The notes under the pieces are model-generated. The model was not told the DNA's origin. It ran no database searches and saw nothing but the letters and a program-made list of their open reading frames with translations. The position numbers were made by a program, and so were the translations under genes. Source: Cenococcum geophilum 1.58 (Eukaryota; Ascomycota; Dothideomycetes; Gloniales; Gloniaceae). Taken from it: 64,000 nt of DNA. Below, in pieces: positions 4,106 to 34,034 of the stretch. The DNA lies in the NCBI GenBank assembly GCA_001692895.1, contig KV748211.1, forward strand, positions 1 to 64,000. Reading direction: 5' to 3'. How positions within the stretch are numbered: position 1 is the first letter of the stretch; each line of letters begins with the position of its first letter.

Positions 4106-4129
4106 GTAACTATAATATATTAATATATT

Positions 4130-5485: not shown

Positions 5486-5568
5486 CTTATAAAAATACCA
5501 ATATGGACTTATCTAGGAAGCCTTCCAATAAAAGTCTAACCGGTAATTGCGGTATTGGGCAAGTAGGA

Positions 5569-9704: not shown

Positions 9705-9719
9705 AGCCGTATTGGGATT

Positions 9720-10329
9720 ACGGGGCGAGTTAACACCGTCCGCTAAGTTATTGTCTATCTTAATTAATTAAGTATAATTTAACTAACTTTACGGCTTAAT
9801 CTGTCCACGGTTAGTATTGCGCGCAGCCTTAATAATAAAAAAAAAGGCAAGGGTTTAGTGAGACTTATAAGAGGAAATCTGGAAAGGCTTCTAAAAAAGA
9901 CCAAAGTGGCTAGAGCAGATGCGGCACAAAGCTGCCTAGACGCGTATTAGGCTAAAAGTATAGTATTAGCAGTATAAACGGTTACTTAAATAATAGAATC
10001 TAAAATCTAAAATCTAAAATCCAAAATGCTGGGTTGGGAATAGCTAAATTGGTTAACTTAAAGAATGCGAATTTAAGTTGAAAGTGGTTAAAGATTTAGA
10101 AGTTTAGGTTTGTGGACCTCTTAAGATTCTAATTTAGACTAGCGAGCTTATATAATCGCCAAGCCTTTAACTTTTTTATTTATTTAAGTTGTAAATTTTT
10201 ACAAATATACCGTGTAAATTAGGCGTGGGATTGCGATGTTTATATATAAATGTTGCGCTATACGCTCATAAAGTAGTTTAGCGAAAATCCTGGGGTTACG
10301 CGCTAGCCTATTCGCGTAACACGCAACAC
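9720..10329. other. non-coding RIPed spacer upstream of the SNF2 gene
   Basis: No coding frame is supported. It holds a quasi-palindrome-like site near 9,880 and a short tandem of TCTAAAA units near 10,003-10,025. It presumably contained the promoter of the divergent-facing SNF2 gene, but no element can be pointed to. Confidence 0.5.
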
Positions 10330-12837: not shown

Positions 12838-13171
12838 ACATAATAGTGCATCAAAGCTATCTTGTTACTCTAATGAAATACACTGTAATTTGATTTAATA
12901 CTCTACCAGTCAGAATCCTATATATTCACATTTTTATTTGATTGATATCGTATGTTTTCTATTGGGGAAATAATTCTCTTCTCACGTATTTATTAAGCAA
13001 ATGCTCCTAAATCTTGTGATTGTTTAAATTTGGGCGATGATTCAGTCGAGGTTAATCATTTTTTTTTTGATACATATGTTATTGGCGTATCGGTTCTTCG
13101 TCATCTATATTTATCACGTTTTGATAATATTTAGTGTGTTTCGTGTGTACTCAGTATAGTGGTCCTGAATT

Positions 13172-13650
13172 TTATTTGTTTGTGCTTCGTAGATGTTTGG
13201 AGGATTTTTCGAGATCAGTGTTTTCTTGATATTTTATCTGTACGCCCGCGTGCGGTAATATCTTCGGCATGGTGTTCGGAGCACATGGGGGTGCCTTAGT
13301 TTTGTCGTGAATAATCATCTTCGGTTATTTTTCATCTGCAATTATTTTGTGTCATGAGCCCGGTGGAATCATCTTAATTTCGTGAAAACTCGTTTTAACT
13401 CCTGATGAATTTTCGAACTTTTTCCCGCAAAATTTTTCAGAAATGCTCTTTGGGACGTATCCTCTAGTATAACTCTTATTTTTATCATCTAAAATATCGT
13501 GAACGTTTACTTTGGCTTTAGCTATTAGTCCCGGCTGTTGTCCACTAGATCTTATCTAGAAAATTATTTCTATCAATGAGTTCTTTTTCTTCATTTTCGA
13601 GTGTATTTCTCCTCCAAAAATTGGCGCAATGCCCTTTTTTGGACCTCAAT
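13172..13650 (-). pseudogene. possible degraded coding fragment inside the island
   Basis: On the minus strand one frame stays open from 13,555 to 13,172 except for two stops, and about 30 further codons lie upstream of a TAG. The reading is Lys-rich and protein-like: AKAKVNVHDILDDKNKS, YTRGYVPKSISEKFCGKKF, HDKTKAPPCAPNTMPKILPH. At this AT content many more stops would be expected by chance. No family is recognised. A 90-residue hydrophobic plus-strand frame overlaps it at 13,601-13,873, which I consider less likely. Confidence 0.25.
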
Positions 13651-13985
13651 CACCGCTCCCTCTTCTGTAACTTACTATTCATTTCTCTGCACTGTAGTTG
13701 TGCATATAATCCTATCTCGGAAGATTTATTTCATAATTTTATTCTTGTTATTTAAAATATTTATGGATATATATAATTTTCATATAGTCACTTTCTCCAA
13801 TATATCTCTATTATTTTTATTGAGTGTGCAGATTGTGTTATGTCTTGACATTATTTTATTTCGATTTATTTAATTTTATGCTTTAATTATATTTTATATA
13901 TATAGTTGAAATATGAATAGGTCTGATTCATTATTTTGCCGACAAAATTATTTATCAAAAAACAAAACATTTATCAATATATGAT

Positions 13986-14010
13986 NNNNNNNNNNNNNNN
14001 NNNNNNNNNN
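13986..14010. other. assembly gap, 25 N
   Basis: A run of exactly 25 undetermined bases. Fixed-length N runs of this kind usually mark scaffold joins of unknown size, so the order and distance of the flanking pieces are not assured. Confidence 0.95.
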
Positions 14011-14402
14011 TAATATAGATTAATAACCTGATGTAGTATCTAAATAGTTTTAGTTTTATTTAATACTGTAAAAAAGAGGATATAATAAGTATAGAATCAT
14101 GCGCGGGTATGTATTTGATGTTGTGGTATATAAATATCTATAGTTTAATCTGATTAGTCTCTGACTAGACAAAGACTAATCTTAGGTATACCACCCTAAT
14201 GAGTACCATCCTATTAACTTGCTATGTAGCCCTTTAGCCTCTAGATAGAATTAGTTCAACTATTTCGTATTATTACATGATAGCCTAACGCCTTTTTTAA
14301 TACGGTCTAAGTAAGTATTTCCCTTTCTATATCTTCTAATAAACTACATTATATAATATCCATAAAGTTCGTATAATAAGGACCTATGAGTTTCGAGACA
14401 GC

Positions 14403-15082
14403 AAAACTAATCTTATTACCACCTATATCTCCTATTAATTGCTATTTAGCTCAACTATAATAATATACATAAGATAACTAACGCTCTTAACGGCTAAGTA
14501 ATTTCCCTATACTCTCTAGCCCTGCTAAACGACTAGGCCCAAAACGTATAATTCTTAAACTTAGTCTAAAAGCTAGTAAAGGATATTTACTGGCTTACTG
14601 CCGAGCCACTTCTAAGCACACACTAACGCTATTACAGACGCAAAATATACGCTTTTATAGGAAGGACGTTTAACCAATAGTTTAGAATTTAGGAAACACT
14701 ACGCCTATATTAAGCCGTTTTAAGCCATAGAGCTAAATTAGATCTTATTTTATATCACTATAGATATAAAGAAAGACTTACCTAATCCCCTAGCTATCTA
14801 GGAGCTACCATATAATATATATCGCGTCCGTTATAATAAGGAGGTATAGCCAAGTAAAACGAACTGAGAATGTTAAGGAAAAGAATTACCTAACTCGGAT
14901 ACGTAAGTATAGTAATATTCTATACCTTTAGGCAAAGCAACCATATTAAAGGTTTAATTTAGATTTTAGACTTTAGAATTGATCTAAACCGCTTGCATTA
15001 CTGGGGCAAAGTAATATTAATATTATACTACGATTGGGCCGTCGGCTAGGGGAACTTTTAGGAAGGCTTCTAAAAAACTGCC
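14403..15082 (+). repeat. R-unit, 3' half, copy 2
   Basis: Matches the right half of the full unit (16,400-17,172): the same plus-strand coding trace (KPFQAIELN, IQELPYNIYRVRYNK) and the same terminal quasi-palindrome at 15,054-15,080. It has lost about 90 bases in the middle of the coding trace relative to its relatives. Its left edge is the right boundary of the unRIPed island. Confidence 0.65.
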
Positions 15083-15329
15083 TTAACTATTACTACCTTA
15101 ACCATCTAAACTAACGTAGTGGCAAATATTGTTATTTCAAATACCGTTTAAAAAAAACTTTGTTAAGGTAGTGAATCCTTCGGCTAATTTATACAGACCT
15201 ATTATGCAGGACCTACCCAGCGTTGCTTAATTATTTTGGTAAACTAAATTAACTTAAGTAATAATCTGAGAACCTCTAATTGATCGGCGTTCGCTTTTAC
15301 TGCCCGCTTGGTCCTACGCCCTCGTAGAC
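15083..15329. other. short non-coding link between R-units
   Basis: No coding frame is supported. It includes a stretch shared with 21,520-21,600 (CTTAAGYRATAATCT), so it belongs to the repeat zone. Confidence 0.4.
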
Positions 15330-17172
15330 TTTTAGGAACTTCACTTTATATATACCCTTCTATCGGTCGTAGGCATTACGTCGTATACGAAGACTATTTC
15401 TTAGAAGGGTCTATTAATGAAGATCCAAAGTTAAGGAAAAGGAAAGGAGAGGACAAGTAGTACCGCTTAAAGATTTATACAATCTTCGAGTCACGTAACC
15501 GCAACCTACGGCAATCTGCCATAATCTACTACAATTTGCCAATACCGTAACACCTAGAGGTTGCGCTATAGTAGAAATTAGTAGAACGAGTTTCTCTTAA
15601 GTACTAAATATCGCCTTTATCACCTCTATTATGTACATTTTTTTTAAGCGAGTAGTACTCCCCTACCCCCAATGCTATGTGGCCCAGTGTCGTACAATAC
15701 TACTAAGGTAGCGCCTTATCGGGTAGTAACGATGCCTAACTCTATAACCCCTTTATATAGTGCGGCGTCAGTCCTTATAAACACCTTACTATTCTTTTCA
15801 ATACCCCCTAAATCTCACCCTAATTTATTTTCTTTAAAATGTACAAGCAACGTTGCCATTATTATTAAGGGTGTGACCATCTAAATGCCTATAATTACGT
15901 TAGATATTCAGTGGCTCTTACACGCCCTAACCGAACCCTTTGTATGCCTATAAGTGGATTTATTTAAGATCTTCTACAAGCCCTTAATATACAAGACCAA
16001 GACTTAGCTAGTTTATATCCACCTTATTCCGGCCTAACTCCTCTAAGCTCTTAGGGTTCGCAGTAATCATATCTAAATACGTACTTAGTAATAGGTATAA
16101 CTAAGGATTGGGTGTAACGTATATAACTTTAGCGCTAAGGACTTAATAGATAGCTGGCCCGGTTCGGGTAAGGGTTACAATAGTGGCAGTATTATGGGTT
16201 TATGAGGCCCGGAGTATACGATTGTAATAATTAATACACCTCCTACCTTATAACACCTTAGGAGATGGGCTTAAAGGGTAAAGTAGGATGCGATAATTGC
16301 TGGGGAACTATCTAAGAAGAATCGTTACTTGCACTTATACAGACACCCTATTATTAATTTATAATAGGTGTCTATTAGTCCTATAAGTAAACTAATCCTA
16401 CCACTACCTGAGTCTCCTATTAGTTGCTATTCGGCTGGGCCATTATAGAGTGTACGTGCGTAAGGTGGCCGAAGCTTCTAATAGCCAAGCAATTTCCCTA
16501 CGCTTAAAATCCCAAACAACTAGAGGCCAACCCCCAATCCATACACCACACAATGTTAAACCCCCCTAGTGCTAAACACTAGCCAAAATGTGTAATTCTC
16601 AGACTTTAAGTAAATGAATTTACTGGTTGGGACCCTTCCGAGTACACCGACGCCATTAAGGCATATCTCGCCTTTACAGGACGTTTAACCGATAATTTAG
16701 AATTTAGGAAATACTACTCCTATATTAAGCCGTTTTAAGCCCCAAAGGTAAACCAAACCTCATTTTATATTACTATGGATATGGAGACAGACTTAGCCAA
16801 CTCCCTAAATATCTAGGAGCTACCATATAAGATATATCGCGTCCGTCGTAATAAGGAGGGGAAGTTATAAGGCTAGTACTCCCTCTTTTATAAATTAGCT
16901 AACTTAGTATATAGCTAAGTAAAGCGAATTCAGAACGTTATTAAGGAAAATAATTACTTAACTCGGATACGCAAGTACACTAATGTTTTATTACCTTGGG
17001 CAAAGTAGTGATATTAAAGGTTCGATTCGAATTCTGGACTGGTTTTGGCCTTATTTTTATAACCAATCTAAACCGCTTATATTACTGGGGCAAAGTAATA
17101 TATTAATATTGTACTACGGTTGGGCCGTTAGCTAGGGGAACTTTTAGGAAGGCTTCTAAAAAACTACCTTAA
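15330..17172 (+). repeat. full-length R-unit (1.84 kb)
   Basis: The most complete copy of the nested unit. Two coding traces are visible. The first is at 15,660-16,050, whose plus frame reads MLCGPVSYNTTKVAPYRVVT and is 70 codons intact; the minus strand is almost equally open there, so its orientation is undecided. The second is at 16,566-17,187 on the plus strand (DAIKAYLAFTGRLTDNLEFR, QELPYKIYRVRRNKEGKLQG, LANLVYSQVKRIQNVIKE), about 200 codons with stops only at Gln-like positions. Neither is a family I recognise. No terminal repeats or target duplications were found. At 15,561-15,575 it carries the empty site of the fold-back element inserted at 19,502. Confidence 0.65.
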
Positions 17173-17269
17173 CTATCTAAAGTGACGTAGTAGCGAATAT
17201 TGTTGTTGTTTGCGGTCCGTAATACTATTTGCTAGCCTGTTCTTATAACACTTAACGCTTAAGCCCCCA

Positions 17270-17400
17270 CGTCTTATAGACTTTTGGGGAACTTCACTTT
17301 ATAGGTCGTATACCAGGACCATTTCTTGGAAGGCTTTTCAAATATTGCTTTGTATATTGCCACCTAGCGAGTGCTCGGCATGGTCTATATAATGCGTATA
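17270..17400 (+). repeat. R-unit 5' end, isolated fragment
   Basis: GACTTTTGGGGAACTTCACTTTAT-type start followed by a quasi-palindrome (about 17,325-17,345) and TATTGCCACCTAG. The same order is seen at 10,330-10,460. The unit breaks off after about 130 bases, where sequence leading to the next unknown gene begins. Confidence 0.5.
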
Positions 17401-17519
17401 TAAGTAGGTTTTAAGGTAAGTTAGCAGCACCCCCGATCTGTAAGATATGTAAATAAATACGCCGGAATTAGGGAGATGGTTAAAAAGATCCGTAAGTAGG
17501 GATAAAAGACAATGTAGTA

Positions 17520-17690
17520 TGGCTGGGGGGGGAGAGAAGAGAGGTTATATATAAATGGATTTATATCGCGTTCTTAAAGCGTCTTACGATGCCTTCTATA
17601 TTGCAATTTTATTCTTTTCTATTTTTTTTTCCTTTTCGTTCCCTATTTTAGGGGGCTAGAGTATATAAGCTAGAGAGAAGAGAGAGGCTA
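17520..17690 (+). other. two purine-rich tracts
   Basis: A run of nine G followed by AGAGAAGAGAGG at 17,524-17,545 and a second AGAGAGAAGAGAGAGGC tract near 17,668-17,685. Such tracts can be polypurine primers of LTR elements or pyrimidine-rich tracts on the other strand. I see no LTR start next to either. They lie just beyond the 3' end of the minus-strand gene at 17,700-19,240. Confidence 0.35.
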
Positions 17691-17699
17691 AGAGTTAGT

Positions 17700-19240
17700 G
17701 CGTTAGGTTATGGCCGAAATTAGACATTCGGCGCTGCTAAATTCCGGCATATTAATACTTTTGGCAGAAAGGCGATATTCCTCTAACCGCCCGGCTAGAT
17801 GCCCGGTAGGATGAATTTAAGGGTAAAAATATTTTTAGTATATTCCTAGGCCAACCTTATATAAATGATTTGTAAATTCTAGCATTCCAAATCCTCCGAA
17901 GTAAGAATAGTAGTTCTCCAATAACTTAAATTTTGCTAGAATTATACAGTATGTGTTAAGACGTTATCGCTTAATTTCGCTGCGCAGCTATCTACAAACA
18001 AAGGGGAGAAGATCCGCTTTAATTTAAGCATTATATAAGATGCACGAATGTCCCACTAGGCGGTCCTCTTTGTCCTCCGCCACGAGACCGCGAATATATC
18101 CTTTAAGAAGACGACGACAGCATTAACTATCCCGAATGCCGAGGGGAGACGCCACCTGAAACTCCCTAGGAGTATATAACTTCTAGCTTAGGGCAACGGT
18201 AAGAATTATAGAGACACGGATAAACACGTCCTGTGTTAACATTAGATATCAACGCACTTTATAGTGTTTACGTTAATAGAGTTAAGAGCTGTTCCAATCT
18301 CCCTTACTGCTAGCTACTTATCTGTTTATGCCCGAGAACTTTTAAGCTTATCTTCGTTATTATAATGTATCAAGTTTTAGTTTCGCCACTAATTCTTACT
18401 CCTGTCTCCCTCCCTAATAGAAAGTATAGCAGTACGCTTTTGCTTTCTCAATATAACGTTCTCGAGGGATAAACAGCCTGTTGTGATATATTAGCCCATT
18501 ATAGATGAATGTAATGACCGGTTAATATACCATTGGTTTTCTTGCTAAGACACTAAGTATACTGCATATAGAAGAGAAAGCACTTCGTCTCTGCTTAGGC
18601 GGCTTTGAACGTTAAGGTCTAAAACGAACCACTTCTATATAGGTTTATCCGTGTCAAAATACGGAGGTATATATATGTAGTTGTAAGCTAAAAGCTGCGG
18701 TTTATAACAGTATTACCGGTTAAGGAATTGACGATAGAATATGTCTGCAAGAGTATTATAACGGTTTTAAGGGTATTTGGGCAGGTCCGTTATACAAATC
18801 TAAAGTATTACCCAAGCTAGATTAGTGCTAAAGTCATCCATTTATATCTTATTAAAGAGTAGTTGCGTAAGAGGAGACATCTCAATACAGTATATACGAC
18901 AGAATAGTGTAACTTAAACGGGAAAGTAACTAAAATTTAAGGAAGTTGATTTTGTTGCATTCTATCGCGGCAGTTGGCCTATGCGAGGATATTAGTAGGG
19001 TAAAACTGCGCCGACCAAGGTCTAAAAACCTAGTTATCCGCGCCGACGCTATAAAGGTGATTTTAATAGCAGTGCACACATAAAGGGCCTTTTCTCCTAT
19101 ACTCGCCATATGGCGGTATAGAATCGCCGGCATATTGTATTAATCCTGACTAATTCTAGACACCTTATTTAACCAATTCAGCCTCTTTACGCAATACTTT
19201 TCTCGTTACCGACCTCCTTACTTTAGCTACGCGCGCTACG
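17700..19240 (-). pseudogene. RIP-degraded unknown gene of about 480 codons
   Basis: On the minus strand a single frame can be followed from about 19,150 to 17,725 without any shift; every stop is TAA or TAG. Readable pieces are RRFYTAIWRVQEKRPFMCAL, NTLADIFYRQFLNRQYCYKP, IQKWFVLDLNVQSRLSRDEV and IMGQYITTGCLSLENVILRK, and in the C-terminal half IVNAVVVFLKDIFAVSWRRT and QEYTKNIFTLKFILPGIQPG. It is basic with several aromatic clusters, has no obvious membrane segment, and shows no catalytic motif known to me. It lies between R-units in both copies. The start codon is not identified. Confidence 0.5.
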
Positions 19241-19256
19241 CTGCTACTAATATAAG

Positions 19257-21438
19257 GACTTTTAGGAAGGCTTCTAAAAAACTACCTTAATTTGCTATCT
19301 ACTATCTAGGTAACAATCCCTCGGCTTAGCTAGCGCCTTAGTAACTAGCCTATATATTTCTTTATATCTTTCCTTCTCCTTAGCTTAGTATTTTCGTAAT
19401 ACAGCATTCGTTTAAGCTTCGATTTAGAAGCATTTATTCGAGCTATAACACTTAGTAAAGGTTTATAAAAGTATTTATATTTCTCGCCCTAGAGGTTACG
19501 CTATCCCTTCCGCTGGTATATCCCGTCCTACTATTATCAATAAGAGCTGGCTAATAGAATCAATACGATCGAGACCCCGCGACTATACGTGTACTTTTAA
19601 TTCTATTGTTCGCGTATAGTCCGCCTCTCATAAGACCAGCGGAAGGGATAGTAGAGATTAGTGAAACGAATTTCTCTTCAGTACTAAATATCGCCTTTAT
19701 CACCCCCGTTATGTGCATTTTTTTATATAAGTAGTACTCCCCCACCCCTAATGCCATGTGGCCTAGTATCGTACAATGCTACTAAGGTAGCGCCTCGTCG
19801 GGTAGCAGTGATGCCTAACTCTGCAAACCTTTTATATAGTGCGGAGTCAGTCCTTATAAATACCCTACTAAGGCCACACTATCCTTCTTAACGCCGCCTA
19901 GATCTCACTCTAATTTGTTCTCTTTAAAATGTGCGAGTAATATTGCCATCATTACCAGGATTATGGCCATCTCTATCCCTATTATTACGTCAGATATTCG
20001 GTAGCTCTTACACGCCCTAACTAAGAAATTTATATGCCTATAAGTGGATCTATATAAGATCTTCCACGAGCCCTTAATATATAAGACCAAGACTTAGCTG
20101 GTTTATGTCTACCTTATTATAGCCTATCTCCTCTAAGCTCTAAGCATTTGCAGTAATTATGTCTGGATACGTACTTAGCAATAGGTATAACTAAGGATTA
20201 GGTGCAACGTATAAAACTTTAGCGCTAAGGACTTAATAAATAGGTAGCCCGGTTCGGGTTCGGGTTAAAATAATAGTAGTGTTATAGGTCTACAAGGCCT
20301 AGGGTATAAGGAGGCAATAATTAATATACTTCCTACCTTATAATACCTTAAGAGATAGGCTTAAAGGGCGAAGTAAGATGCGATATTTGCTAAAAAACCG
20401 TCTAAGAAGAATTGTTACTCTATAAGTGTAATAATAGTCGTGCCATATTCTATATTGTTCCTCTATTATAATCCGTTAGCTTACTTCGCTAAGTCCTAAC
20501 GACCTTAACTAGAGTCGCGGACTACTTCTATAATAGTACTAATAAATAGGTCACGTGACCCGTGCTAACGGTTAGTTTATTTACACTTATATAGATACCC
20601 TATTATTAATTCGTGATAAGTATCTATTAGTCCCGTAGGTAAACTAATCCTACCACCACCTAGGTCTCCTATTAGTTGCTGTTCCGCTAGGCCGTAATAA
20701 CATACACAAGGCGGCTGCGTGTATATAGTAGCCGACGCTTCTAGTAGCCGAGCAATTTCCCTACACTTTTAACCACCTAAAAATCCTAAACAACTAAAGG
20801 CCAACACCCCTTATCTATATATTACAATGTTAAACCCCTCTAGTGCTAAATACTAGCCGAAACATGTAATTCTTAGACTTTAAGTAAACGAATTTACCAG
20901 TCGGGACCCTTCTGAGTACACCGACGCCATTAAGGCATATCTCGCTTTTATAGGACGTTTAACCAATAGTTTAGAATTTAGGAAACACTACGCCTATATT
21001 AAGCCGTTTCAAGCCTTAAAGCTAAACCAAATCTCATTCCATATTACTATGGACATGGAAAAAGACTTAGCTAACCCCCTAACTATCTAGAAGCTACCGC
21101 ATAAGATATATCGCGTCCGTCGTAATAAGGAGGGAAAGTTATAAGGCTAGTATTCCCTCCTTTATAAATTAGCTAACTTAGTATATAGCCAAGTAAAACA
21201 AATTCAGAACGTTATTAAGGAAAAGAATTACCTAACTTGGATACGCAAGCATAGTAATATTTTATACCCTTAGGCAAAGCAGCCATATTAAAGTTTCGAT
21301 TCAAATTTTGGACTGGTTTTGGCCTTATTTTTAGAACCGATCTATACCACTTACATCACTAGGGCAAATATATTAATATTATACTATAGTTAAGCCGTTG
21401 GCTAAGGTAACTTTTAGGAAGGCTTTTAAAAAACTGCC
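19257..21438 (+). repeat. R-unit with fold-back element insertion
   Basis: Begins and ends with the quasi-palindrome (19,257-19,283 and 21,411-21,436). It contains the middle module (19,740-20,350) and the plus-strand coding trace (20,865-21,400), in the same order as 15,330-17,172. A 149-bp fold-back element is inserted at 19,502. A 170-base stretch at 20,390-20,560 links it to copy B 41,310-41,486. Confidence 0.6.
19502..19650. mobile_element. fold-back MITE, family 1
   Basis: A 149-bp element with perfect 16-bp inverted repeats TATCCCTTCCGCTGGT (19,502-19,517) and its complement (19,635-19,650). TA lies at both ends, as for TA-targeting elements. The related R-unit at 15,561 reads straight through as GCGCTATAGTAG, giving the empty site. 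The interior matches 641-791 on the opposite strand. Confidence 0.75.
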
Positions 21439-21548
21439 TTAATTACCATCTACTATCTATATTACTATTTACCTCTACCGTCTATAATACTATTTAAGAC
21501 CCTTATTAAGGTAGCAATCCCTCAACTTAGCGTTGCTTCACTACTTAG

Positions 21549-24500
21549 GTTAACCACACTAACTTAAGCGATAATCTAAGAACCTCTAATCGATTAGCGT
21601 CTACTTTTACCAATAAGAACGCTGCTATGCTTTCTATGTCCTTAGAGTTAGTACTATATCGCCGTAAGCGCTTTACCTAGGCCTATTTAACATCCCCTAT
21701 AGCCGCTGTTATGCCTAAAATGACGCTTAACACGAGCTCGCTATATTAGCACTGGTCAACTCCACTCCGTTTCTAGCCCTAGGTAGGATCCTTTGTCCAC
21801 CAGTTGTATAGCTCTTAAGGCACTATATAGTGATAACACCCGCTAAACTTGGCAAAGCGTAACATTAATTATAACCTCCTAGCGGCATCCCGAACGGTGC
21901 CCGCTAAGGGCGTAGTATAGGTGCGTATATTATATAAGGCTTCGCTAGCCTGGGCTATGCATATTAGGCAGTATGTCGTCTACCAGATAAGATAGTATCT
22001 TAGCTGCTCTAGCATAAGCTGTTCCGCCCTTACCGAGGCGGTTACTTTCAATTACTAAACGCTTATCCGCGCTTCCTGTATCGCAAACTCGGCCTTATCA
22101 GCGTTTAAAAAAACAGGCACGTCCAACTCTTAACCGTCCAGCCGTTCGGCAGCGCAGACGTCATATAGCTCCTCACCATCAGTGCAACCGTTCCAGACCG
22201 GTATCCCGTCTATTTTCCCGTCTAGGTATTTATTAAGTACCACCCTACGGCAGGTTTTAACGTCTGCTTCTCTTTGGAGATAGTCTAGCAGAGCTGCCCT
22301 GCGGCCTTAATCGCTATCCATAGGCGTATCAAGCCTATTACCAAGAAAAATAACAGCCTAGCTTACCCTTCCATCGCGGCCTACTCTTTCGCTCTCTTAG
22401 GCGTAGTCTTCGACCGACCTTAAAGCTCCTAGGTGCAGCACTACATCTATACCAGGTACGTCAACGCCTAAACCTAGCGAGCTCGTGGCGATAACGGTCC
22501 CGTTATTACTAGAAATAAAGCGCTTAAGCATATCCTCTTAGTTAATTAATTCGGAATGGTAGGCTGTATAGTAGAGGCTTTTACTAAGACTATCGGTTAT
22601 CTATCTCGCGTAGTAGTATATAATTGCTTTCCCCCACGGCTCTAGTAGACCTATAATGTAGCGGCCGATAACTTAAGCGGCTTGGTCAATGGCGGCTATA
22701 GTCAGGCTCCATACCGGCTCCTTATCTATATTAATAATAGCATAGCGTATATTACGTCTGGTGGTAGGCGCCCTAATTAACTTAACACTCTTAGCGGTAA
22801 AGTACATCTTACGCTAAAGCCGCTGCTCTTCTGTCGGGGGAAGAGTAGCTATTAGGAGCACCATCTATGTTCATATAGCTACTAGACGACCCAGGCGTTA
22901 TAAAGGCGCGCGGAACTTACTACTCCTATCTAGTACGGTGTGGTATTTATCGATTATAATTTATGCTAGGCGGCCTGTAACTTACATTCTATTTATAAAT
23001 ATCTGAAAGCTGTCTGCTTTAACCGCCTTAGGCGTTACAAATACTATTGATACTGCGTTAATAGGGCTACGCCCATTTTATGCTACGGCCTATAGCCTAG
23101 CCAACTCGCATCTTTATAGAAGATCCTATCGGAGAGAGAGCAGCGGAATAATAATAATGGTAAGGCCTGCATTGTTATAAGCGGCCGGCAATATAAATAT
23201 CAGACTCTTGCCACCGCCTATTAGTATAATAATAACCACCAGACTTTCCCCACGTAAGATTGCGTAGATACCGATCTGTTGCGCACCCTAAAATTTAGCT
23301 TACTCTCCACATATAGCTTTTAACTGTATTATGGCGTTAACGGTTCTTAGGCCGCGCCATCTTATCCGCTTAGCGTTGCCGGTTGGATTTATAGGTATAA
23401 CGTGCTTTTAGGATTCAGAGGAAGTGTTTATAGCGCCACGTGGGAGAAAGGCTAGGAAGGCGTACCACTTGGTACTTAATCTTTAGAATTGTTACCTTTT
23501 GCTTATAGTAGTTCTAACTAACTCTCCTATAAGACGCGCATATACGGTCTCGCCTATTTAGGCTATATGGCCTGCCTGCTCTTTATATATTATATTAAAA
23601 GATCCTAGCTTATCCTTTTTTGAGCCACTATTATTACCACTCTTAATAAAGGCAGACTAAGTCTTTAGGTACTTTTAACCGATGGCAATCGCAACCTGGC
23701 GGTATGTTTAGATATTAAGCCTACATCCTAGGCCAGCCTCCGTTTCTTACTAAAGGGTATAGGTAAAGCGGCCGGAGTTCTATTTAGTGCCTTACGCGTT
23801 AGGCGGCCACATTTTATACAATATAGTATTCTCCGGCTAGAGCATCTGCTCTAGCGCGCGCTGAAATGGTAATATAAGCCAGAGGTATAGAACAACTAAT
23901 CTCCTAACCTCGCTAGGTATAAATCGGTAAATGACCTTGGACCGTCCGGCATGGNAAGAGCCCTTAGAGTATTAAGGTACAAATGCGACTATACCGTAGA
24001 TAATGAAAATGTTTTAATATTTACCTGCAACGGTGTTGCTATAGCGTATACTTAATATCTCGGTGCCTCTCGCGGGCTGGCCCCCTATAACGTGTATAAG
24101 CACTAGAAGCTTATATAAAAGCGCTTTAACTTAGTTAAGGTAGGTTTTAATACCGGACTTATTCGGTCTACCTTTTAGGCCTTAGAGTTTAAACATAACC
24201 TAGCGCTATTTATCTAGCACAATATAGTTTATAAGCCAGTCCTAGGTATAGAAAATATGCTTATTGCGGGGGTTTTAAAGAAAGTTCTAGCCAGGAACGG
24301 AGTTACTGGGGTTGTCCTAAAGGGCTTTAATCCGCACGGTTGGGGTACTGGTACGTTATTTGTTAAATAGCAGGTCTTAGTAGACTAAACGTTCCATATC
24401 TTTAATAAGGCTATGGACAAAACTGCGAAACTCGGGCATTGTAAAACGAATGGTTTTGTAGAGTAGCTTGTCGTTAACCCATTCTACCTCGCCCTCGATT

Positions 24501-26000
24501 ATTGCTTTGAAGTGCACCTTTAGGCTGTAGGTTTGAAGGTCTAGCATCCACTGCATTGGTCCCTTAGTCCCTCGCACTATGAACTTGTTTATTATCTTAG
24601 TTAACGACTTTAGGCATCTTCCCTCCGGTATATCTTAGTGGGCATTGCTACGGACGGCGTCTGCGTCGGCAATTAGGGCAGCTTGCACGACTATAAACTG
24701 ACTAAGCTTTATTATAGCTGATAGTGTCTTAATATATACGCCGCACTCCTTCTACCCTGCTGCTGTTATACCCTATAGGGCTAATGCACATACCAAGGGA
24801 CTCTTGTACTCGGTACTGCGTACTCTCTAGTCTAGAAGTGAAAGACAAAACACTAGGCAAGCCTTAGCTAAGGGGCTGAGTATATTGCCCTTATATAACC
24901 CGGTAGGGGTATTAGTACTACGCTTTGCGGTACGTAGTAGCGCTGACTAGGTACGCTTTTGTTGGTTGTTAAGTGTGTATCTAGGGCTAACTCTATCTAC
25001 TACGGGCCATGTCCGTCTAAAGAATATAAGCACTATCTGCTACGGTCTGTAGTAGTCGTTAGGGGGCTTCTTGCCTTGGTACGATTGGAGGGGTCGGTAT
25101 TGGTCCTAGTGTACCTGGTCCCGGATAGCTTCGGTCCGTAGAAAGATGCCGGCCTTTAAGGCTATGGTTTCGTTGTAGGTCTAGTAGAGCTCGGCTATGG
25201 CGTTCTATATCGCAGTAAGGGTTAACTCGTTGTCTAGGTTGGGTTTGTTAATTAAGGCTAGGAGTGATTCCAACTTGGCGGTGTTAAGGTAGTTATACTA
25301 CCCGGTATATTTTACCCAGGGGTCTATCTTAAAGACATTTCGGCAGTCTATATAGGTGTTCGTCACTTATTCCTTCTCGTTACAGGCGACGAGACTGTCG
25401 TGTATAAATGCTAGGAAATTATGGTTGCTGGCTTTAGCAACGTTGTCCGCCTCCATATCGGTTACGGCTATATTAACGGCAAAGAAGCTTAAGCCGTGTC
25501 GGCTTAGGAATAGCCTTTAATAGGCGGTTTGCTTCTAGGGATTAGGTATAGTCCGTTCGGTCAGTTATCTGGTAGTATTAGTTAGGCGGCCCTTACACGC
25601 GTATTTCTTCCACGAGTGTTAATCTCAGCAGTGTGTAGCCATTTTCTTCGTACTTCTATATATATATCGGTAGATTTCCGGTGTAAGCTAGTAGAGGAGC
25701 CCGTTGTAATATATATTTAGGTAAGGGATAGGTTGCTTAAGGGTCCGGAGATTCGGTAATTTGTTAGGTTTATAGACAAGTTAGTTTAGGGCTTAGACAA
25801 GGCGTGCCAGTTCTTAGAGTTCGACTTTATTCAGCCGGTGGTAGATGCCGCTAAAATGTTAGCGGACTTCGGAAGGCCATACCGCATATTAACAATTGGG
25901 AGCGGTGTAGACGATAATTTAGTATTCCGGTAGATGGATTAGATTCTCTATATATTTAATAAATGCTGTTTCCCTATATATAGCTATTTGGTGTACTTAC
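21549..26000 (-). pseudogene. telomere-linked-helicase-type protein: zinc finger, tyrosine-recombinase-like region, RecQ helicase
   Basis: The minus strand encodes about 1,450 residues of the fungal RecQ/telomere-linked helicase class. N-terminal zinc-finger-like modules read ENLIHLPEYQIIVYTAPN and KKMATHC (25,600-25,930). The conserved block GTKGPMQWMLDLQTYSLKV follows (24,377-24,577), then GGQPARGTEILSIRYSNT (about 24,030-24,090), TYRQVAIAIG (about 23,680-23,705) and QAGHIAQIGETVYAR (23,530-23,578). The helicase follows: Walker A IGGGKSLIFILPAAY (about 23,190), a DExH box changed to DKYH (about 22,945), TATLPP-like motif III, and motifs V/VI (GLGVDVPGIDVVLHLGA, SERVGRDGR, 22,380-22,480). 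A C-terminal CRR...GEELYDVC zinc-binding-like tail comes last. It is inactivated by many TAA/TAG stops. It is divergent from the gene at 26,191. The class is often subtelomeric. Confidence 0.85.
23530..24090 (-). other. tyrosine-recombinase-like catalytic region within the RecQ gene
   Basis: Conserved positions in order on the minus strand: Arg in QPARGTE (codon at 24,068-24,070), Lys in YSKGS (23,964-23,966), Arg in TYRQVAI (23,699-23,701), His in AGHIAQ (23,567-23,569) and Tyr in TVYAR (23,540-23,542). Spacings are 35, 88, 44 and 9 residues. In tyrosine recombinases the last His/Trp precedes the nucleophilic Tyr by 9 residues and the Lys lies about 90 before the box II Arg, so the pattern fits, except for a longer Arg-His interval that holds a Ser/Gly/Lys-rich insert. 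This is inference from motifs. Confidence 0.45.
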
Positions 26001-26190
26001 TGTGGATTATAACTTTAGCCAAGGGCATTTTTAGGAAGGCTTCCGGAAATACTCCCTGGTAAGTTTTATATTGCTATTTATAGTGTTCTAGTTTCGGTTC
26101 TTAGGGGGAAGGTATAAAAGCGCGTAGCCGAAGCTTGGCCTTAATGCGATTCCTTGACGCGATTTCCTACTTTAATAATATCCCACCGCT
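26001..26190. promoter_or_regulatory. divergent intergenic region with quasi-palindrome
   Basis: About 190 bases separate the RecQ-type gene (minus) from the unknown 520-codon gene (plus) and should hold both promoters. The quasi-palindrome lies at 26,026-26,050. The minus strand also shows GTATTT ... CACAG (about 26,002-26,056), so the motif may lie inside a 5' intron of the helicase gene rather than in a promoter. Confidence 0.35.
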
Positions 26191-27747
26191 ATGGCTGCAT
26201 CAATTTTAGCCCTAGGCGTGACGCCTTAAGAGACACGGACGTTCCTTCTACGTTCACTTCCGGCATTGTTTATCGGCACCGATATGCCTATAGTATAGGT
26301 GCGCGACAGTACTAACCCTAGCCTCTCGTTCTTCGTTACAAAGTCACCGGAAGATACGTTATAGTAAATCCGCCGGTCCTATAGGCCTAAAGTGCTTTTA
26401 TAACTTAAACCCGAACCAGTTAATGCAGATAACGCCAGTCTAGACTCTCGGCCGTAAAGTAAGGACGACAGCAACTATAGTAGCCCGGTATGGTTTCGGT
26501 CTACAGCTAGTATTATAGACAACGGTCCACGGGACATAAGCGATAAGAGTGCCTGCCGTAGGGGCAAAAGGCTAAGGCTAATATCTAATGCTTCTCTATC
26601 TTAACCGCCTGCTAGGCGTGCTTGGGACCATATAACTACACCGGGCCCGGAGTATATTATAACGGTCGGTAATATAAACAGGCGTAAGGAAAGGGATAGG
26701 CGTAGGAGGTTAGAAAATAAGCTCTCGGAGGTGTTCGTAACTAAGGAAGAGGATAGCATATAGAATGTATATATGCAGGAGAACGGAAGGAAGCTTAGCT
26801 GGTTAGCTAAACAGGCTAACTGTATAGGAATAGGTAGATAAGAGGCGTCGGCGTTAGTCTATAGGGCAAGCGCTATCGGCAGCGGCGAAGCTGTTAAAAA
26901 CATTAAGGCTGTACTTACCTACTGGCGAAAAAATAGCACTATAGATTTGAACTGGCAGACTGGTCCCCAGTCATCCTCGCATCCTCCCCAATCGTCGTCG
27001 TAGTCCTTAGTTGCTTCTACGTCCGGCAGCCAGAATATAAACGCGGCGCTGTCGGGCTTCCGAAAGGCTTTCTTTAACGTTGCTAGTATTAAAGCAACCA
27101 GAATACTTTAGGAGATTCTCTATCGTCATCATCTCGCACACCTCTACAATTGCTATTGAAATGCGGAAGCACTCCTGGATTGTACGCGATTAAGTGCACA
27201 GGGTAGAGGTGTTGGCGACGCGTCTTTGGTTAAGTAGTAGCTCTTTAAGGCACTCTACCCATCCACGGATACGCCTTCTTTATCGCTGGCCAACTCCTCT
27301 GCTCTATCTAATAAGCAATAGCGGTACTTTACAAAGTGTCTTTATAAGGGCTATCGATGGTATTGTATATAGGAGGCACTTGGTTCTAGCATTTTTGCTC
27401 TTATTCCTACATCTAAAATACCTTATTCTTTTATGGAGCGGCTCTTATTAGGTATATTCGACGTATTTCTTAACCTTATCTAGCGGTTTTACCTAGACGC
27501 CGTTAAGTTTGGTCGACTAATAGAAGACTTTATACAAAATGCATTAGCGGGCCGGCAGCCACCTCATGGTTATCTTCCTATTAAAGATATAAGTGATAAT
27601 CAACTGTAGGAAATGGATCTTTCCGACGTACTCTAGCTATTTAACCGTTATCCTGCGCTAGCTATTGAGGATATTTCTTTCTCACCTATTCCTTAAGTTG
27701 GTGGGATTAATTTCTTTCATTATAGTAGTATTATTGGGTATATATAG
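26191..27747 (+). pseudogene. RIP-degraded unknown gene of about 520 codons, divergent from the RecQ gene
   Basis: From ATG at 26,191 (MAASILALGVTP) one plus-strand frame runs about 519 codons to a terminal TAG/TAA at 27,745-27,750. All internal stops are TAA or TAG and there is no frameshift. The N-terminal half is Arg- and Ser-rich (RRKERDRRRRLENKLSEVFV; TGPQSSSHPPQSSS). The C-terminal half looks globular and helical (GSSIFALIPTSKIPYSFMER, NLIQRFYLDAVKFGRLIEDF, NALAGRQPPHGYLPIKDISD, SPIPQVGGINFFHYSSIIGY, with Gln where stops now stand). I do not recognise the family. Its fixed head-to-head position beside the helicase in both copies suggests a partner function, perhaps a nucleic-acid-binding protein. 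That is inference. Confidence 0.6.
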
Positions 27748-27750
27748 TAA

Positions 27751-28192
27751 ATATAGACATTTTATAAAAGCCTTTCTAAAAATCTGCAGATTAAGGCTTG
27801 GTACGTAGCTTGAATTAGGCGGTCGGCGCTATTTAACGCACTTAGGGCGTACGGCGAATCGCAGCCTTATCTCTTATCGGCACTACAATTTTAGCGCACG
27901 CGAGTTAGATCGGTGTAACCGTCCCCTAATCCCCCCTTTATCTAAACCAAATCGACTACTCCACTATATCGCGACCGTATATGCATATTGGTGGGATTTT
28001 GGAATTTTTAGATGGGTAGGATCGTAGCCAAGGTATAGCTATAGGCCCTACTAAAATTGCATCCGGATTGGAGCTCGTTTAGGGTACAGTTCCCTTATAG
28101 TTTTGTAAATAGTTCCACCCTACCTTTAGTTAGAAACCTTAGCCGGTAAAAATTAGTTCTACCCATAGTACGGTACCGAAAAGGCTTATAAT
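27751..28192. other. non-coding right end of the duplicated block
   Basis: No reading frame is supported. A quasi-palindrome (27,757-27,783) lies immediately 3' of the plus-strand gene and could act as a hairpin near its transcript end. Homology to copy B ends at 28,192. Confidence 0.5.
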
Positions 28193-28194
28193 AG

Positions 28195-28322
28195 TTACCT
28201 ATCCTAATTACCCCGTTCTAATTACCCCGTCCTAATTACCTTATCCTAGTTACCCTGTTTTAGTTACCTTGTTCTAGTTACCCCGTTCTAGTTACCCTAT
28301 CCTAGTTACCCCGTCCTAGTTA
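28195..28322. repeat. 14-bp minisatellite at the copy A boundary
   Basis: Nine head-to-tail units of 14 bp (the first is 13), consensus TTACCCCGTCCTAG. Units differ from one another only by transitions, as expected if RIP acted on an originally homogeneous array. It begins three bases after homology to copy B ends and is absent at the corresponding right end of copy B. Confidence 0.85.
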
Positions 28323-28769
28323 ATATTATTTTACTTACTATTACTATTTAAATTATTACTAAATACTACTATCCTATAAATATATACCTATAATGCCTAT
28401 TTTTCGGAAGCCTTTTAAAAATATCCCCTATTATCCTATAGCCGTTTCCTTATAACTGCTAATATATATAATATAATTATTAACCTAACTTATATTATTA
28501 ACCTACTTAACTTACTTACTAACTCCCTATTATATACTCCTCTTTCTCCTTTCCCTAACTAATACCTATATATATATATTCTCTTTTCTTTATAACTTCT
28601 CCTTTTCTAACCTACTTTTTATAATTAATAGTAATCTTAATAAACTTATAAAACTTCTATATCTATAGAAAATATAATTATTAAATATTAAAAATATTAA
28701 GAAACTCTATCTTAACCAAATATACCTAAGCCTAAATTTAAAATATATTATAATATAATATATATAACT
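28323..28769. other. AT-rich sequence between the two copies
   Basis: Extremely AT-rich, without coding potential. It contains one quasi-palindrome (28,392-28,418). It may be the left end of the repeat block, whose copy A counterpart would lie outside the window. Confidence 0.6.
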
Positions 28770-28921
28770 AATATATATAACATTATAAACGCCCTAGTAA
28801 AACCTAATCTAATACTATAACTTACTAATATAATCTAACTCTACCAAAAATTCTCTTTTTTTTGCCCCTATACTATAAAAACTAACTCTACTTCTACTCT
28901 ACTTACTTAATACTTAGTAGA

Positions 28922-29409
28922 ATGCCTCCTTATACTTCCTATATTAGAAAACCTTAATATTTAACCTGTTATAAGTTTTGGAATACTAGAAAAGACCCTA
29001 TAAACCTCTATAACCTTATAAAATCAATACCTGCTAATATATGGAAATAATCTCTTATAGTTTAAGAAGAGCCCCTTACTACTAGCCTTCTACCTTCTAA
29101 AATCTATTATTTAGTTTTTGTAAAGGAGAAGAACGGAAGACCTTTAGTTTTATTAGCTAATAACCTTATAGATATCTTTAAGACTTATACACTTAATAAG
29201 GAGAATTATAAGAAATAGTAATATTATGTCACTATAGAGGAAGCTTTTAAACCTTATAGAAGAATAATAAAGACCTAACTTTAAGTACGAAACTTTTTAT
29301 ACTGTAATTAGTACTAGAGTTAGAGTTAATTTAATACTAGAATTGATTATTTCTTAATGCCGTTATATTTTTTGCCTAAAGCATTAGTATCCGATTACTT
29401 TTTACCACC
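28922..29409 (+). pseudogene. copy B of the unknown gene at 153
   Basis: Same frame as 153-640, starting with ATG at 28,922 (MPPYTSYIRKP). It has additional stops and His-to-Tyr and Arg-to-stop changes typical of RIP, and is again terminated by a fold-back element. The product is not recognised. Confidence 0.4.
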
Positions 29410-29560
29410 GCCCCTTTTCCTACTAATATCCTATAACACTTAGACTATACGTAAACACCAGAATTAAAATTATCTATATAGCTATAGAGTTTTAATCCCA
29501 TTAATTCTATTGCCTAGCTTTTATTAATAATACTAAAACAAAATCTATTAGGGGAAGGGG
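29410..29560. mobile_element. fold-back MITE, copy B
   Basis: Counterpart of 641-791. The right inverted repeat (TTAGGGGAAGGGG) is kept; the left one has one C-to-T change (CCCCTTTTCC). It was inherited with the segmental duplication, not an independent insertion. Confidence 0.65.
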
Positions 29561-29648
29561 TACTATAAGGGGGGATTTTTCGGAAGCCTTTCTAGAAATC
29601 CTCTACTTATAACCTTCTCTTTTATAATAACCCCTTTATTATACTATA

Positions 29649-30197
29649 GAATCTATTATCCTATAATTCTATCTTATATAGAGTATGCTACCTACCCTAT
29701 TTCTACCTCTTATTAAAATCTACCACTAGTTGCCTTTAATCTTCGTTAATACTTCCTAAATACCCTTACTAATACTAATAGCTTCCTTTAAGTCTTTATT
29801 AGCTAGTAATATTTATACTCCTTTACTAATTGCTAATAATAGATCTAATTACTAACCTCCTATACCCTTATAGTGTTAGTTCTTTTTACTTATCTATTAT
29901 AATTTAGCACTTATAAATCTGATTTACTAGAACTTAATATAAACCCTAATATATACTTCTTGTCCTATATACCGTAGGACGTTAAACGGAGTTTTATACA
30001 TCCCTATTAAGATCCTATATTACTTAGTATACTGCTATTATATTGTAACCCTATACTAATAACGGAATTACCCGCTTTTACAGCTCCTTAACTTTACTAA
30101 CCTATACTTTATCTTTGGCGAGTTCCTCTAGTATCTAGCTCTTAGCTTTAAGAAGTACTCTATTAACTATAAATCGACTTATAATACTCTTTATTAT
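29649..30197 (-). pseudogene. copy B of the charged helical unknown gene
   Basis: Counterpart of 880-1,428. The start ATG has become ATA (codon at 30,195-30,197) and the frame has more stops. No additional information on function. Confidence 0.3.
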
Positions 30198-31157
30198 CGG
30201 TACTAGCGATTTAAGCATCTATATATATTAGTATATATTGGAACCATATAATATAGCTATCTTATACCTAAAAGCATTTATTTTTATCTTAAAGGCATAA
30301 GCAATATGGTTAAGCGCTATTGGTAAAATTAAGGTTAAAGTATTTATAGCTTTCTATGCTAATAAATATGTACTAGTTAGGAACACAATCGACCTAAAAC
30401 GCTTTAAATGCCGTTATTAAGCATACTATGCACATATTAGCGTTTGGCTTTACCTTTAAGATTATATTATTATATTATTATTTAAGGATATTAAGGAATG
30501 CTGGGTCGGGCCTTTAAGCAAGTAGGGTTAAGAGTAGTATCTATGGCATCCTAAAATTAAAATTAATAAAGGATGCTTAGAATAGAGTTAAATTTAATAT
30601 TTAGGTTCTATTCCGTGATAAGCTTTTAAAAGTTTAGGATTTTAATTAGAAAAAAAAAATTTATATACTTTAGATTATGTAAGCGATCTATTATATAATT
30701 TAAATCCAATTATTATCCTTTAAAACTACCTTACTGCTAATAATACTATATCACTATATTTTATATTATACTTCTCTAAACTGTATACCCTTTTTTAAAA
30801 TCCCTAAATAAAAATATATATATTATAGAACTTATCTATAATACCTCTTTTTCTACTACTTTATATCTATTAATCTATTTTCTACTATTTTCTAAACTAT
30901 ATTGTACTAACCTACTATTAAAACTTACCTATTATATATTTTAAATATAATTACCCTTTTTAGAATACTTTGGTCCAATATATACTATATTTTATTTCCT
31001 AGTATACTACCTATAGACATTTTTAGGAAGCCTTTCTAAAAACTCCCTTTAATCTATGTTATATAATATATTAATCTATTATAATATACTACTATTTATT
31101 TCCACTTTATAGAGATATTTTTATTATAATACGATATATTTAATTACTCTATAAACC

Positions 31158-31951
31158 CGATCACTAATTTTAAATTAATATTAGATATCTCTAATACCCA
31201 ACTTAAGAAGTCCTCTATATATAATTTAAAACCATTAGCCCTATATCTAAAGAAGTAAACTTAAAGTTACTCTAACTTAAACCTATCTACCGCAGCCTCT
31301 AGCTCTGTACTAGCCGCTTTATACTATTTAGACTTATGCCTAAAAAGTAATGTCCTAACCCCTTCCGCAAGTACAACTATTAGCGCCGCTTTATTAACTG
31401 CTATAGTATTAGGGTAACTATTGCCAAACTCCTTATAGATATCCTAATAAATATTAGTTTACTAAGCTAGTATAGCTTAGGATTAATAACCGACTATAGT
31501 AGCATTTATATAAGGTTTGGTTTTAGCTTTATTATTAATAAAGGACGTAGCGCTAGAGTGCAACATAATTTAAGAACTGGGTCCATATTTTTCAATAGAT
31601 ATACTATATTAGTTATTATAATGTTAGGGTTATAATATATAGTGGACTTACGTTCGCATTAGAGCTAGTGCTAGTTCTTTAGTCTTATAGCGCTACTTGT
31701 TATTAGCCTATAGTCTAGGGTATATATTAACTCTAGCTAAGGGTGGCTTCCCATTAATAAGTAATCTGCCTATTATGGCCTTTATAGTATTAGCATGCTT
31801 TTTAAGGACCTATTTATTATAAGTTAGAGTAGTAAAGTGTATATTAGTATAAACTTACTTAATAGCAGTTGTTGTCTAGAATAAAGCAATTAATGCATTA
31901 TTAATAGGGATAGTTAGGGTTAGTAAAGAAACGGACTTAATCCTTATATAC
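31158..31951 (-). pseudogene. copy B of the intron-containing unknown gene, 5' truncated
   Basis: Counterpart of 2,390-3,181. The frame is readable (NTVKAVIGRLLINRKP region) and the 48-bp intron (31,604-31,651) keeps GTAAGT and the acceptor, although His and Ala codons around it are changed. The 5' end is missing because the 300 bases matching 3,180-3,485 are absent; the sequence jumps at about 31,951. Confidence 0.45.
31604..31651 (-). other. intron, copy B
   Basis: Same 48-bp intron as at 2,836-2,883. On the minus strand the donor is GTAAGT and the branch/acceptor ACTAATATA..., with only a G-to-A change inside. Confidence 0.5.
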
Positions 31952-32595
31952 ATATTTTTTATAATTTTTATAATTTAAATTTTATATCTATTTTTCTAAG
32001 TCCATTTTACTTTAGGAAAGAATAAATTATTTTTACTAATAAAGGATCTAACTAAGTAAGGCATATAGTTAATNATTAGTTTATAAAACAATAGTATAGG
32101 TAAGAAAGGTATNGCCTATAACTAAGGTACTAANAACACTTNTAGAAAGCCTTTAGATAAATATCTAAGTAGTAGCTATAGTAAAATAAAAGAAAGACNA
32201 ACTANATATAATATAGGTATAATACTTAATTTTATANATNGCTNGGTATAAGTAGTAAAGGATAAGTTAAGGAAGGAAGAGGTAGTTAGAGTAGTAATTA
32301 GGTTTAATAATATAAGATAATATTTAGGGAGAGATCCTTTAATAGATATTAAATTTAAAATATACAATAGGTAAGTTCTAATAGTAGGGAGGTAGAATAT
32401 AGTTAAAATAGAAAATAGATAGAAAGTAGTGGAAATAGGTATTATAGGTAAGTTCTATAATATAGATATTTTTAGAAAGGCTTCCTAAAAAGTATATATA
32501 GTAAAGGGAACTTTAGAAAGGTTAATAGTATTATATAGCTAATAAAATTCTAGTAAGGACCTAAATATAGAGTAACTATAATATATTAATATACT
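31952..32595. other. AT-rich spacer with N bases
   Basis: Matches 3,486-4,129. There are numerous single Ns at 32,074-32,244. It contains a quasi-palindrome at 32,467-32,492. The short open frame at 32,176-32,367 has low complexity and is not a gene. Confidence 0.6.
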
Positions 32596-33951
32596 TAGTA
32601 TCAACAATAGCACGTAGGCTGTTAGTATTGACGTTCCTTATTATAATAATGCAGCGACCTTTAGGGATAATAGCTATGCGGTCTATAATTAGCTAACCTA
32701 AAGTGGTGTTATATAGGCTAATATATAGCAGGTTTCTAAAGACCTTACTAGGCGTATAAAGTTAAAGGAAGCTACTTTACTATATACTATCGTTAAGGGT
32801 ATCTAGGCTTTACTTATATAGCGCTGGTCTAGTAAGGCCTATACTGCCCGCGAGAAGCTTAAAGACGTAATTATTAACGCTTAAATAAATAAATATGTAT
32901 AGCCCTAAATAAGTCCTTCTAAGACGAGAACAGTGGTTAGGATACGGAAGATAGTAATAGTCGAGTATAATGGTAATAAATGGTCGTAATCCTAGATACT
33001 ATAATATTTGTAGGCTTTACTCTAGGTAATAGGCCAGATTAGTACAGTATATACTTATATATCTCTCCATACCCAGTAGTATAGCTAAATGGTTAATATC
33101 TGCTTAAATAGCATTACCGCAATAACGCCAAAGAGCTTTTTAGAAAGCCTTCTAGAATATACCTATAAGCGTTAGTTATAAAGCAACGGATATATACTAT
33201 AGATACTAATATAGTATAGAAGTATATAAGTATAATGGCTAGTTAACGCAAGCTACTAATAACGGATAAATGTTTTTTATAGTATATTAAGTGTATAAAA
33301 CAAAATGGGTATTACTTATATAGTTATTAATTAAGGTAGAAGTCTTCGTATTGCTAACTACCTCTTCTATATAGGGGGGCTGGTGGTAGTAATAACTAAA
33401 GTCTAAGTAGGGATATACGCTAGTAAATAAGTACTAGAGCACGGATTAGTTGGTGCTTTATTAGGAGCCTTTTATAAAAGGATTTTAGCCAACGCCACTA
33501 GGAGTAAATAGGTCTGTTAGTTAACTAAGCAATTTTAAGGTCCTAAAGGTATTAGCACTAAATACTAAAGTAAGAAAGTAGAAAAGCAAGAAAGTAAGAT
33601 AGGGAAGTAAAAAAGAAAATATTTAGACGGTATACCGTTAAAAGGGAATATAAAAGGATGGCCGTTAAAATAACGCCTAAAAGATTTAACTAGAGTAAGA
33701 AAGAAATATAGAAAGCCTTTTTAAAAAGCTAACTGGAGGCTGTTATGGTTATTTATAAGGAGGTAATAAGACCAAAAATCTGGCGCGCTAATGCTAGTGG
33801 TTAGTATAAGAGCGAAGCTAAGAGTAGGCTAATAGGAAATCAGCGTCTAAGTGGGAAGATAGTAATACTAACCCTATTAAAGAAAGATGCTTAGTAGAAA
33901 CCTAATCTAGGTAAAAATTCCAGTAGTAAAGAATGTAGGAAATTGTAAAGA
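32596..33951 (+). pseudogene. copy B of the unknown gene at 4,130
   Basis: Counterpart of 4,130-5,485 with the same frame and the same shift into a basic C-terminal part. There are additional stops and His/Cys/Arg losses. Not recognised. Confidence 0.4.
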
Positions 33952-34034
33952 CTTATAAAAATACTAATATGGACTTATCTAGGAAGCCTTCCAATAAAAG
34001 TCTAACTGGTAATTGCGGTATTGGGTAAGTAGGA

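Follow-up and report, generated by a model that had tools for sequence, protein, structure and literature searches.

Gene content of the window

We analysed the first 64,000 bases of contig C36 of Cenococcum geophilum 1.58 (KV748211.1; this whole stretch is termed the window, and window base 1 is contig base 1). It is AT-rich (GC content 0.36), its genes have fungal relatives, and self-BLAST reveals two related stretches of about 28 kb in tandem. Each of these, termed element copies a and b (C36a and C36b), carries on the minus strand the remnant of a gene which combines OrsD zinc fingers, a tyrosine recombinase domain and a RecQ-type helicase and which has been disrupted by repeat-induced point mutation (RIP). 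A related RIP-affected gene without the helicase is found further right (Table 1). The genome searched comprises 177 Mb on 162 contigs. Residue numbering follows the homologue P0001, and a sequence with a gap in a given column is outside the denominator for that column.

Table 1 Features of the 64,000-nt window and the evidence on which they were annotated.
Feature	Positions	Strand	Evidence
Element copy a	1..28193	.	Self-BLAST against copy b; left part off the contig
OrsD zinc-finger, tyrosine recombinase and RecQ gene, copy a (RIP pseudogene)	21530..25948	-	tblastn; 70 in-frame stops
RecQ-type helicase domains, copy a	22370..23284	-	Pfam on read-through: DEAD 3.9e-9, Helicase_C 5.6e-10
Tyrosine-recombinase catalytic region, copy a	23483..24145	-	About P0001 residues 500-720; catalytic codons, conservation, fold predicted for homologues
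Type-1 right terminus, copy a	28183..28193	+	GGCTTATAATA; point at which 17 of 18 examined copies stop, 17 full termini genome-wide
Element copy b	28194..56168	.	From copy-a junction to type-1 terminus
OrsD, tyrosine recombinase and RecQ gene, copy b (RIP pseudogene)	49492..53910	-	tblastn; in-frame stops
Tyrosine-recombinase catalytic region, copy b	51445..52107	-	Codons R, K (Glu place), K, R, Y (His place), Y (L009)
Type-1 right terminus, copy b	56158..56168	+	GGCTTATAATA
OrsD and tyrosine-recombinase gene without helicase (RIP pseudogene)	56731..59247	-	tblastn with P0028 (59241-58792, 58131-56731); OrsD profile (58924-59247); motifs
Outer (type-2) terminus of composite	59992..60001	+	ATAGGGTATA here; end of 6 of 6 copies, six different flanks

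The gene of copy a is a pseudogene. It is covered by tblastn matches to P0001 (25642-21530) and P0003 (from 25948), its in-frame stops consist of 36 TAA, 32 TAG and 2 TGA codons, and no open reading frame of at least 150 residues is found at its locus. The DEAD and Helicase_C domains assign the window gene to the RecQ family, as is typical of a telomere-linked helicase.

According to the original prediction, the region between the zinc fingers and the helicase contains the catalytic signature of a tyrosine recombinase. The minus-strand frame from 24.1 to 23.5 kb reads QPARGTEILSIR, YSKGS (the next codon contains N), TYRQVAIAIG and AGHIA*IGETVYAR, so that the motifs are present as predicted, except that the glutamine given for the last motif is a TAA stop. 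The catalytic codons are located at 24070-24068 (R), 23965-23963 (K), 23701-23699 (R), 23569-23567 (H) and 23542-23540 (Y), and the predicted spacings turned out to be exact (Arg-Lys 35, Lys-Arg 88, Arg-His 44, His-Tyr 9). We discarded spacing alone as evidence for a recombinase, because shuffling the read-through protein yields the five-residue pattern at tolerant spacings (R-K 20-45, K-R 65-100, R-H/W 15-50, H/W-Y 9) in 1351 of 2000 cases and a spacing match is thus worth little. The signature is raised above chance because its residues are conserved in 140 homologues.

Conservation of the catalytic residues

A search with the read-through gene returned 47 proteins, 38 of which were assigned to the OrsD-RecQ family by domain reading. 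A second search, using five helicase-less proteins as queries, gave 221 matches (120 listed), while a third led to a diverged clade, termed clade 2, with 778 proteins (120 listed). Ordinary RecQ helicases were excluded: P0039-P0047 from alignment A1, from which P0006 was also removed as a near-duplicate of P0005, and from the 140-sequence alignment, and P0238-P0267 from the clade-2 count. Alignment A4 comprises 81 of the 140 sequences. Among the matches listed, the family has relatives in Parastagonospora, Pyrenophora, Alternaria, Aureobasidium and Elsinoe.

R525, K560, R648 and Y701 are invariant in the 37 aligned members of the family, and residue 692 is His in 30 of them, Arg in six and Tyr in one. 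When the alignment is extended to 140 members, R is retained in 139 of 139, K in 138 of 138, the second R in 130 of 131, H in 122 of 131 and Y in 128 of 130 sequences. Among the 1371 columns these residues rank 26th, 23rd, 40th, 198th and 68th in conservation, respectively. K560 is the sole fully conserved Lys between residues 500 and 720, and Y701 is the most conserved Tyr in this interval. Clade 2 (95 members) has R in 85 of 86, K in 85 of 85, R in 81 of 82 and Y in 79 of 79 sequences. The expectation that the signature is conserved among homologues was thus confirmed for R, K, R and Y, which occur in this order in both clades, and less so for the last His, which is mostly Arg in clade 2. 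The signature is also found without a helicase: three proteins from Fusarium (P0235-P0237) contain OrsD zinc fingers but, by Pfam, no helicase, and in P0237 the signature is complete.

One further member of the fungal family, P0008, comes from a record of the plant Tanacetum cinerariifolium under the name RecQ helicase L2 and is probably a fungal contamination in the plant assembly.

Predicted fold and profile searches

Models of the homologues show the fold of a tyrosine-recombinase catalytic domain, which supports such a fold for the catalytic region. In this respect structure prediction agreed with the original prediction, while the segment around the Tyr is modelled at low confidence, and we use the models as evidence for the fold, not for whether the five residues cluster. 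Among viral structures, model m278fd6877d5c is best matched by BFVD entry B5LWN9, an uncharacterised protein of a Feldmannia species virus, across 446 columns.

Neither the read-through gene (searched at E up to 1) nor ten homologues (E up to 10, with HMMER filters discarding most weak matches) gave a match to PF11917 (DUF3435). The PF00589 profile retrieved nothing from the genome, which says little because the same search also failed to detect the OrsD-recombinase domain present in the window. For the helicase part of the clade-2 profile, the best PDB matches are BLM, RecQ5 and RecQ1.

Element copies and their termini

The genome contains 22 places of the subfamily represented by the window gene (subfamily 1), and a second subfamily with 31-38% identity, which is largely found on small contigs. 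Upstream ends were compared for 18 of the 22 places (all except C75:286901, C75:279182, C76:421100 and C71:216243). Copies share 2551-2567 bp upstream of the P0001-equivalent start, beyond which most pairs diverge, and 17 of the 18 terminate with GGCTTATAATA, about 2.2 kb from the start of the OrsD region. When a 200-bp terminus was used as query, the same 17 were found together with a partial copy on C75 and a diverged copy on C103. The latter (75%; G000:C103:5190-5376) is on a contig without a listed RecQ match.

Six of the 17 flanks are common (C36b, C137, C76a, C128a, C72 and C71) and seven others differ. C36a and C100a both end within one GTTACC-repeat region of another copy, at points separated by about 20 bp, and the flanks of C93 and C130 are in similar simple repeats. 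For C36a, C100a and C75 the right flank matches uninterrupted target sequence, which in the case of C75 is a version of an internal repeat of the element. Such repeats, about 300-890 bp long, occur several times within each of the units of about 28 kb (window 10546-21531 and 39012-49493).

Homology extends inward from the termini to the farthest points compared, at 108.8 kb (C52), 106.2 kb (C75), 98.8 kb (C114) and 95.9 kb (C72), as obtained by coordinate subtraction between sampled points rather than by full alignment. C41 and C75 are homologous across 9.9 kb and at six sampled points, C41:1-1000 is mostly dispersed repeat, and four copies are homologous up to the outermost base compared. By this sampled homology, the element is a giant one of at least about 100 kb. 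It seems from one junction that the left part of copy b is interrupted by copy a. Window position 28197, where copies a of C36 and C100 abut, was considered as left end of the element and rejected because ten other copies stay homologous further out.

The flank common to six copies was likewise rejected as an empty target, because no copy of it without the element end is among those scored and because it is part of a larger unit. All six copies extend to 59995, which no other contig of 40 scored candidates does, and all six of these composites end at window position 60001, each with a different flank. The helicase-less gene is in this outer part. On C155, which belongs to the second subfamily, the same gene pair is found with the helicase-less gene upstream on the same strand, and pairs of OrsD profile matches 3.5 kb apart on C148, C152 and C156 suggest more such gene pairs. 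Identity between the two helicase-less genes is 58.1% across 186 residues, against 37-42% to the RecQ-fused genes of the same genome; these pairwise identities suggest that the helicase-less and RecQ-fused genes are an old pair. Both helicase-less genes keep R, K, R and Y, and in both the His position is occupied by Tyr, perhaps through RIP.

RIP and the age of the copies

Five other gene copies differ from that of C137 at 427, 650, 454, 545 and 595 of about 4100 sites. Every one of these changes is a transition, mostly C to T at CpA and CpG. Comparison of 13 copies over the 2.55-kb upstream part gave 0-6 transversions and 0-17 gap columns, and three comparisons of the common flank showed zero transversions in 1900 sites. 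It seems that the copies were nearly identical at the time of RIP and therefore go back to a recent burst. The catalytic codons were tabulated for 30 listed loci, L026, L027 and L029 being second pieces of L020, L018 and L019, respectively. All six checked codons are retained at three of the 22 subfamily-1 loci, including window copy a, while 19 have lost His or Glu through RIP-type changes. The Lys and Tyr codons are intact at all 22.

Relation to known systems

The OrsD-RecQ family resembles Xer/Cre-type recombinases in its predicted fold, in the order R-K-R-(H)-Y and, where the last His is kept, in a His-Tyr distance of nine residues, as in known tyrosine recombinases. It differs in the mostly absent box-II His, which varies within the superfamily, in a stretch from box II to the last His that is longer by about 20 residues, and in the zinc fingers and helicase attached in the OrsD-RecQ protein. 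Cryptons are small elements, whereas the unit described here spans at least 96-109 kb by sampling and has a RecQ fusion, with sequences compared through Pfam scans only. The likeness is that Cryptons are eukaryotic tyrosine-recombinase transposons, as is proposed for our elements; they were first found in fungi (PMC12134995).

The Starships of Pezizomycotina are giant elements with an inward-pointing tyrosine recombinase gene at one end, which insert into other repeats (PMC12134995). Our elements are alike in size, in insertion into repeats and in gene position, the two genes being 2.2-2.6 kb and about 0.75 kb inside their respective termini and pointing inward. In contrast to Starships, the proteins scanned have no DUF3435 match, OrsD zinc fingers and RecQ are joined to the recombinase, and some copies carry the second, helicase-less recombinase gene. 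Although the gene is captain-like, we did not file the element as a Starship because DUF3435 is missing where tested.

Reports of telomere-linked RecQ helicases from fungi go back to at least 1998 (reference list of PMC10532341), and the function of these proteins is described as unclear (PMC11893274). UTASa, tlh1 and M. oryzae TLH are, like the genes described here, RecQ helicase repeats in fungal genomes, and an OrsD domain has been noted in the UTASb repeats of U. maydis (PMC10532341). They differ in that the parts of their descriptions available to us do not mention a recombinase domain, and titles and abstract openings in the literature contain no report of one in this helicase family.

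Interpretation

We regard it as close to certain that the recombinase domain is real. The predicted recombinase-helicase fusion is supported by the conservation, by the predicted fold, and by DEAD and Helicase_C in the window gene. We consider it likely that a single protein, with N-terminal OrsD zinc fingers, core-binding and catalytic tyrosine recombinase parts and a C-terminal RecQ helicase, is encoded by the mobility gene of the element. That this gene is not a passive passenger, as had also been proposed, is supported by its inward position at a sharp, recurrent terminus and by the helicase-less recombinase gene at the second terminus. The location and inward orientation of the gene, the sharp ends, the insertion sites, which are varied and partly nested, and the recent multiplication make it equally likely that the recombinase domain mobilises the element. 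More generally, fungal OrsD-RecQ proteins, which are currently classed as telomere-linked helicases, would be transposases (probability roughly 0.6): a separate eukaryotic tyrosine-recombinase lineage fused to a RecQ motor, beside a helicase-less sister, which mobilises elements of at least 100 kb independently of Starships, some settling at chromosome ends. The residues were traced in the relatives aligned above; the named UTASa, tlh1 and M. oryzae TLH may or may not share them.

The zinc-finger and core-binding parts might bind the element ends, and the recombinase would cut and rejoin DNA via a 3'-phosphotyrosine, thus excising and inserting the element. We can only guess that the RecQ motor unwinds or branch-migrates joined intermediates or aids copying of the element. 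The helicase-less OrsD-recombinase gene would be an old partner able to head a larger unit.

Several observations weigh against this interpretation. All 22 listed subfamily-1 places bear stops, copy C76b (one of 18) lacks the terminus, and neither the far (left) terminus nor target duplications were found by walking outward along the copies. Among the members scanned, Pfam, PHROGs, NCBIfam and PDB-sequence scans gave no recombinase match. No Foldseek E-value is below 0.001 (best 0.019; 0.0034 in the viral library), and in both models the predicted local distance difference test (pLDDT) is below 50 in the last-His/Tyr segment (P0028 843-863, P0116 578-597) and just after the Lys (P0028 714-719, P0116 448-450). 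P0235 has Gln at the box-II Arg and P0236 terminates before the Tyr. The histidine of the box-II HxxR motif is not conserved in the 140-member set or in clade 2: position 645 is A in 66 and Q in 44 sequences, and H is absent from the listed residues, which cover 137 of the 140; in clade 2 it is L in 53 and H in 17 of 82. In clade 2, the last His is replaced by Arg in 76 of 80 sequences.

The missing box-II His and the replaced last His would fit a domain that descends from a recombinase and still binds DNA but no longer transfers strands. We consider this improbable, as Tyr, Lys and both Arg are near-invariant across two clades and binding alone needs none of this. That the motif arose by chance within a helicase, as the shuffles might suggest, is hardly credible given the conservation, the fold and the signature of the helicase-less P0237. 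It is unlikely, though less so than these, that the domain is real while the gene is a passenger and the units are moved by another enzyme, e.g. a DUF3435 captain further left, beyond the part seen. Only one end has been mapped and Starships are captained by DUF3435 proteins (PMC12134995), but two different OrsD-recombinase genes each occupy the place of a captain, facing inward close behind a sharp terminus.

The blocks might also be segmental duplications of subtelomeric DNA which homologous recombination has spread, as with the Y' elements of yeast, the recombinase fold serving telomere upkeep and not transposition. Telomere-linked RecQ genes are described at chromosome ends of several fungi (PMC10532341, PMC4522978, PMC12857005), and on six small contigs (C142, C148, C151, C152, C155 and C156) matches of the second subfamily stop 148-733 bp from the contig end. 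This is about as improbable as the loss of strand-transfer activity: termini end at the same base with unrelated flanks, insertions are at differing places within other copies, and several copies are more than 90 kb inside contigs. The window has no telomere array, with only two matches at 3 mismatches, and none is present in the end 60 bases at each of four contig-end loci. The odds of these alternatives overlap, as they are not mutually exclusive.

If telomere-linked RecQ helicases are indeed fused to a recombinase and placed at the ends of giant elements, their repetition, their spread and possibly their linkage to telomeres gain a testable cause. Starships would then no longer be the sole giant elements of fungi driven by a recombinase, and the second kind would be overlooked by screens based on DUF3435. 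This also raises the question of the role of a RecQ motor within the same protein as a tyrosine recombinase.

Sequence beyond the outer terminus

The outer flank of C36b starts with a dispersed 1.9-kb repeat (window 59998-61888), which adjoins the outer terminus and has about 40 further listed places in the genome at 82-89% identity. The remaining sequence (61885-63999) matched only itself and one repeat of about 150-200 bp. This dispersed repeat of about 150 bp (62080-62230) is partly self-complementary and is embedded in otherwise single-copy DNA.
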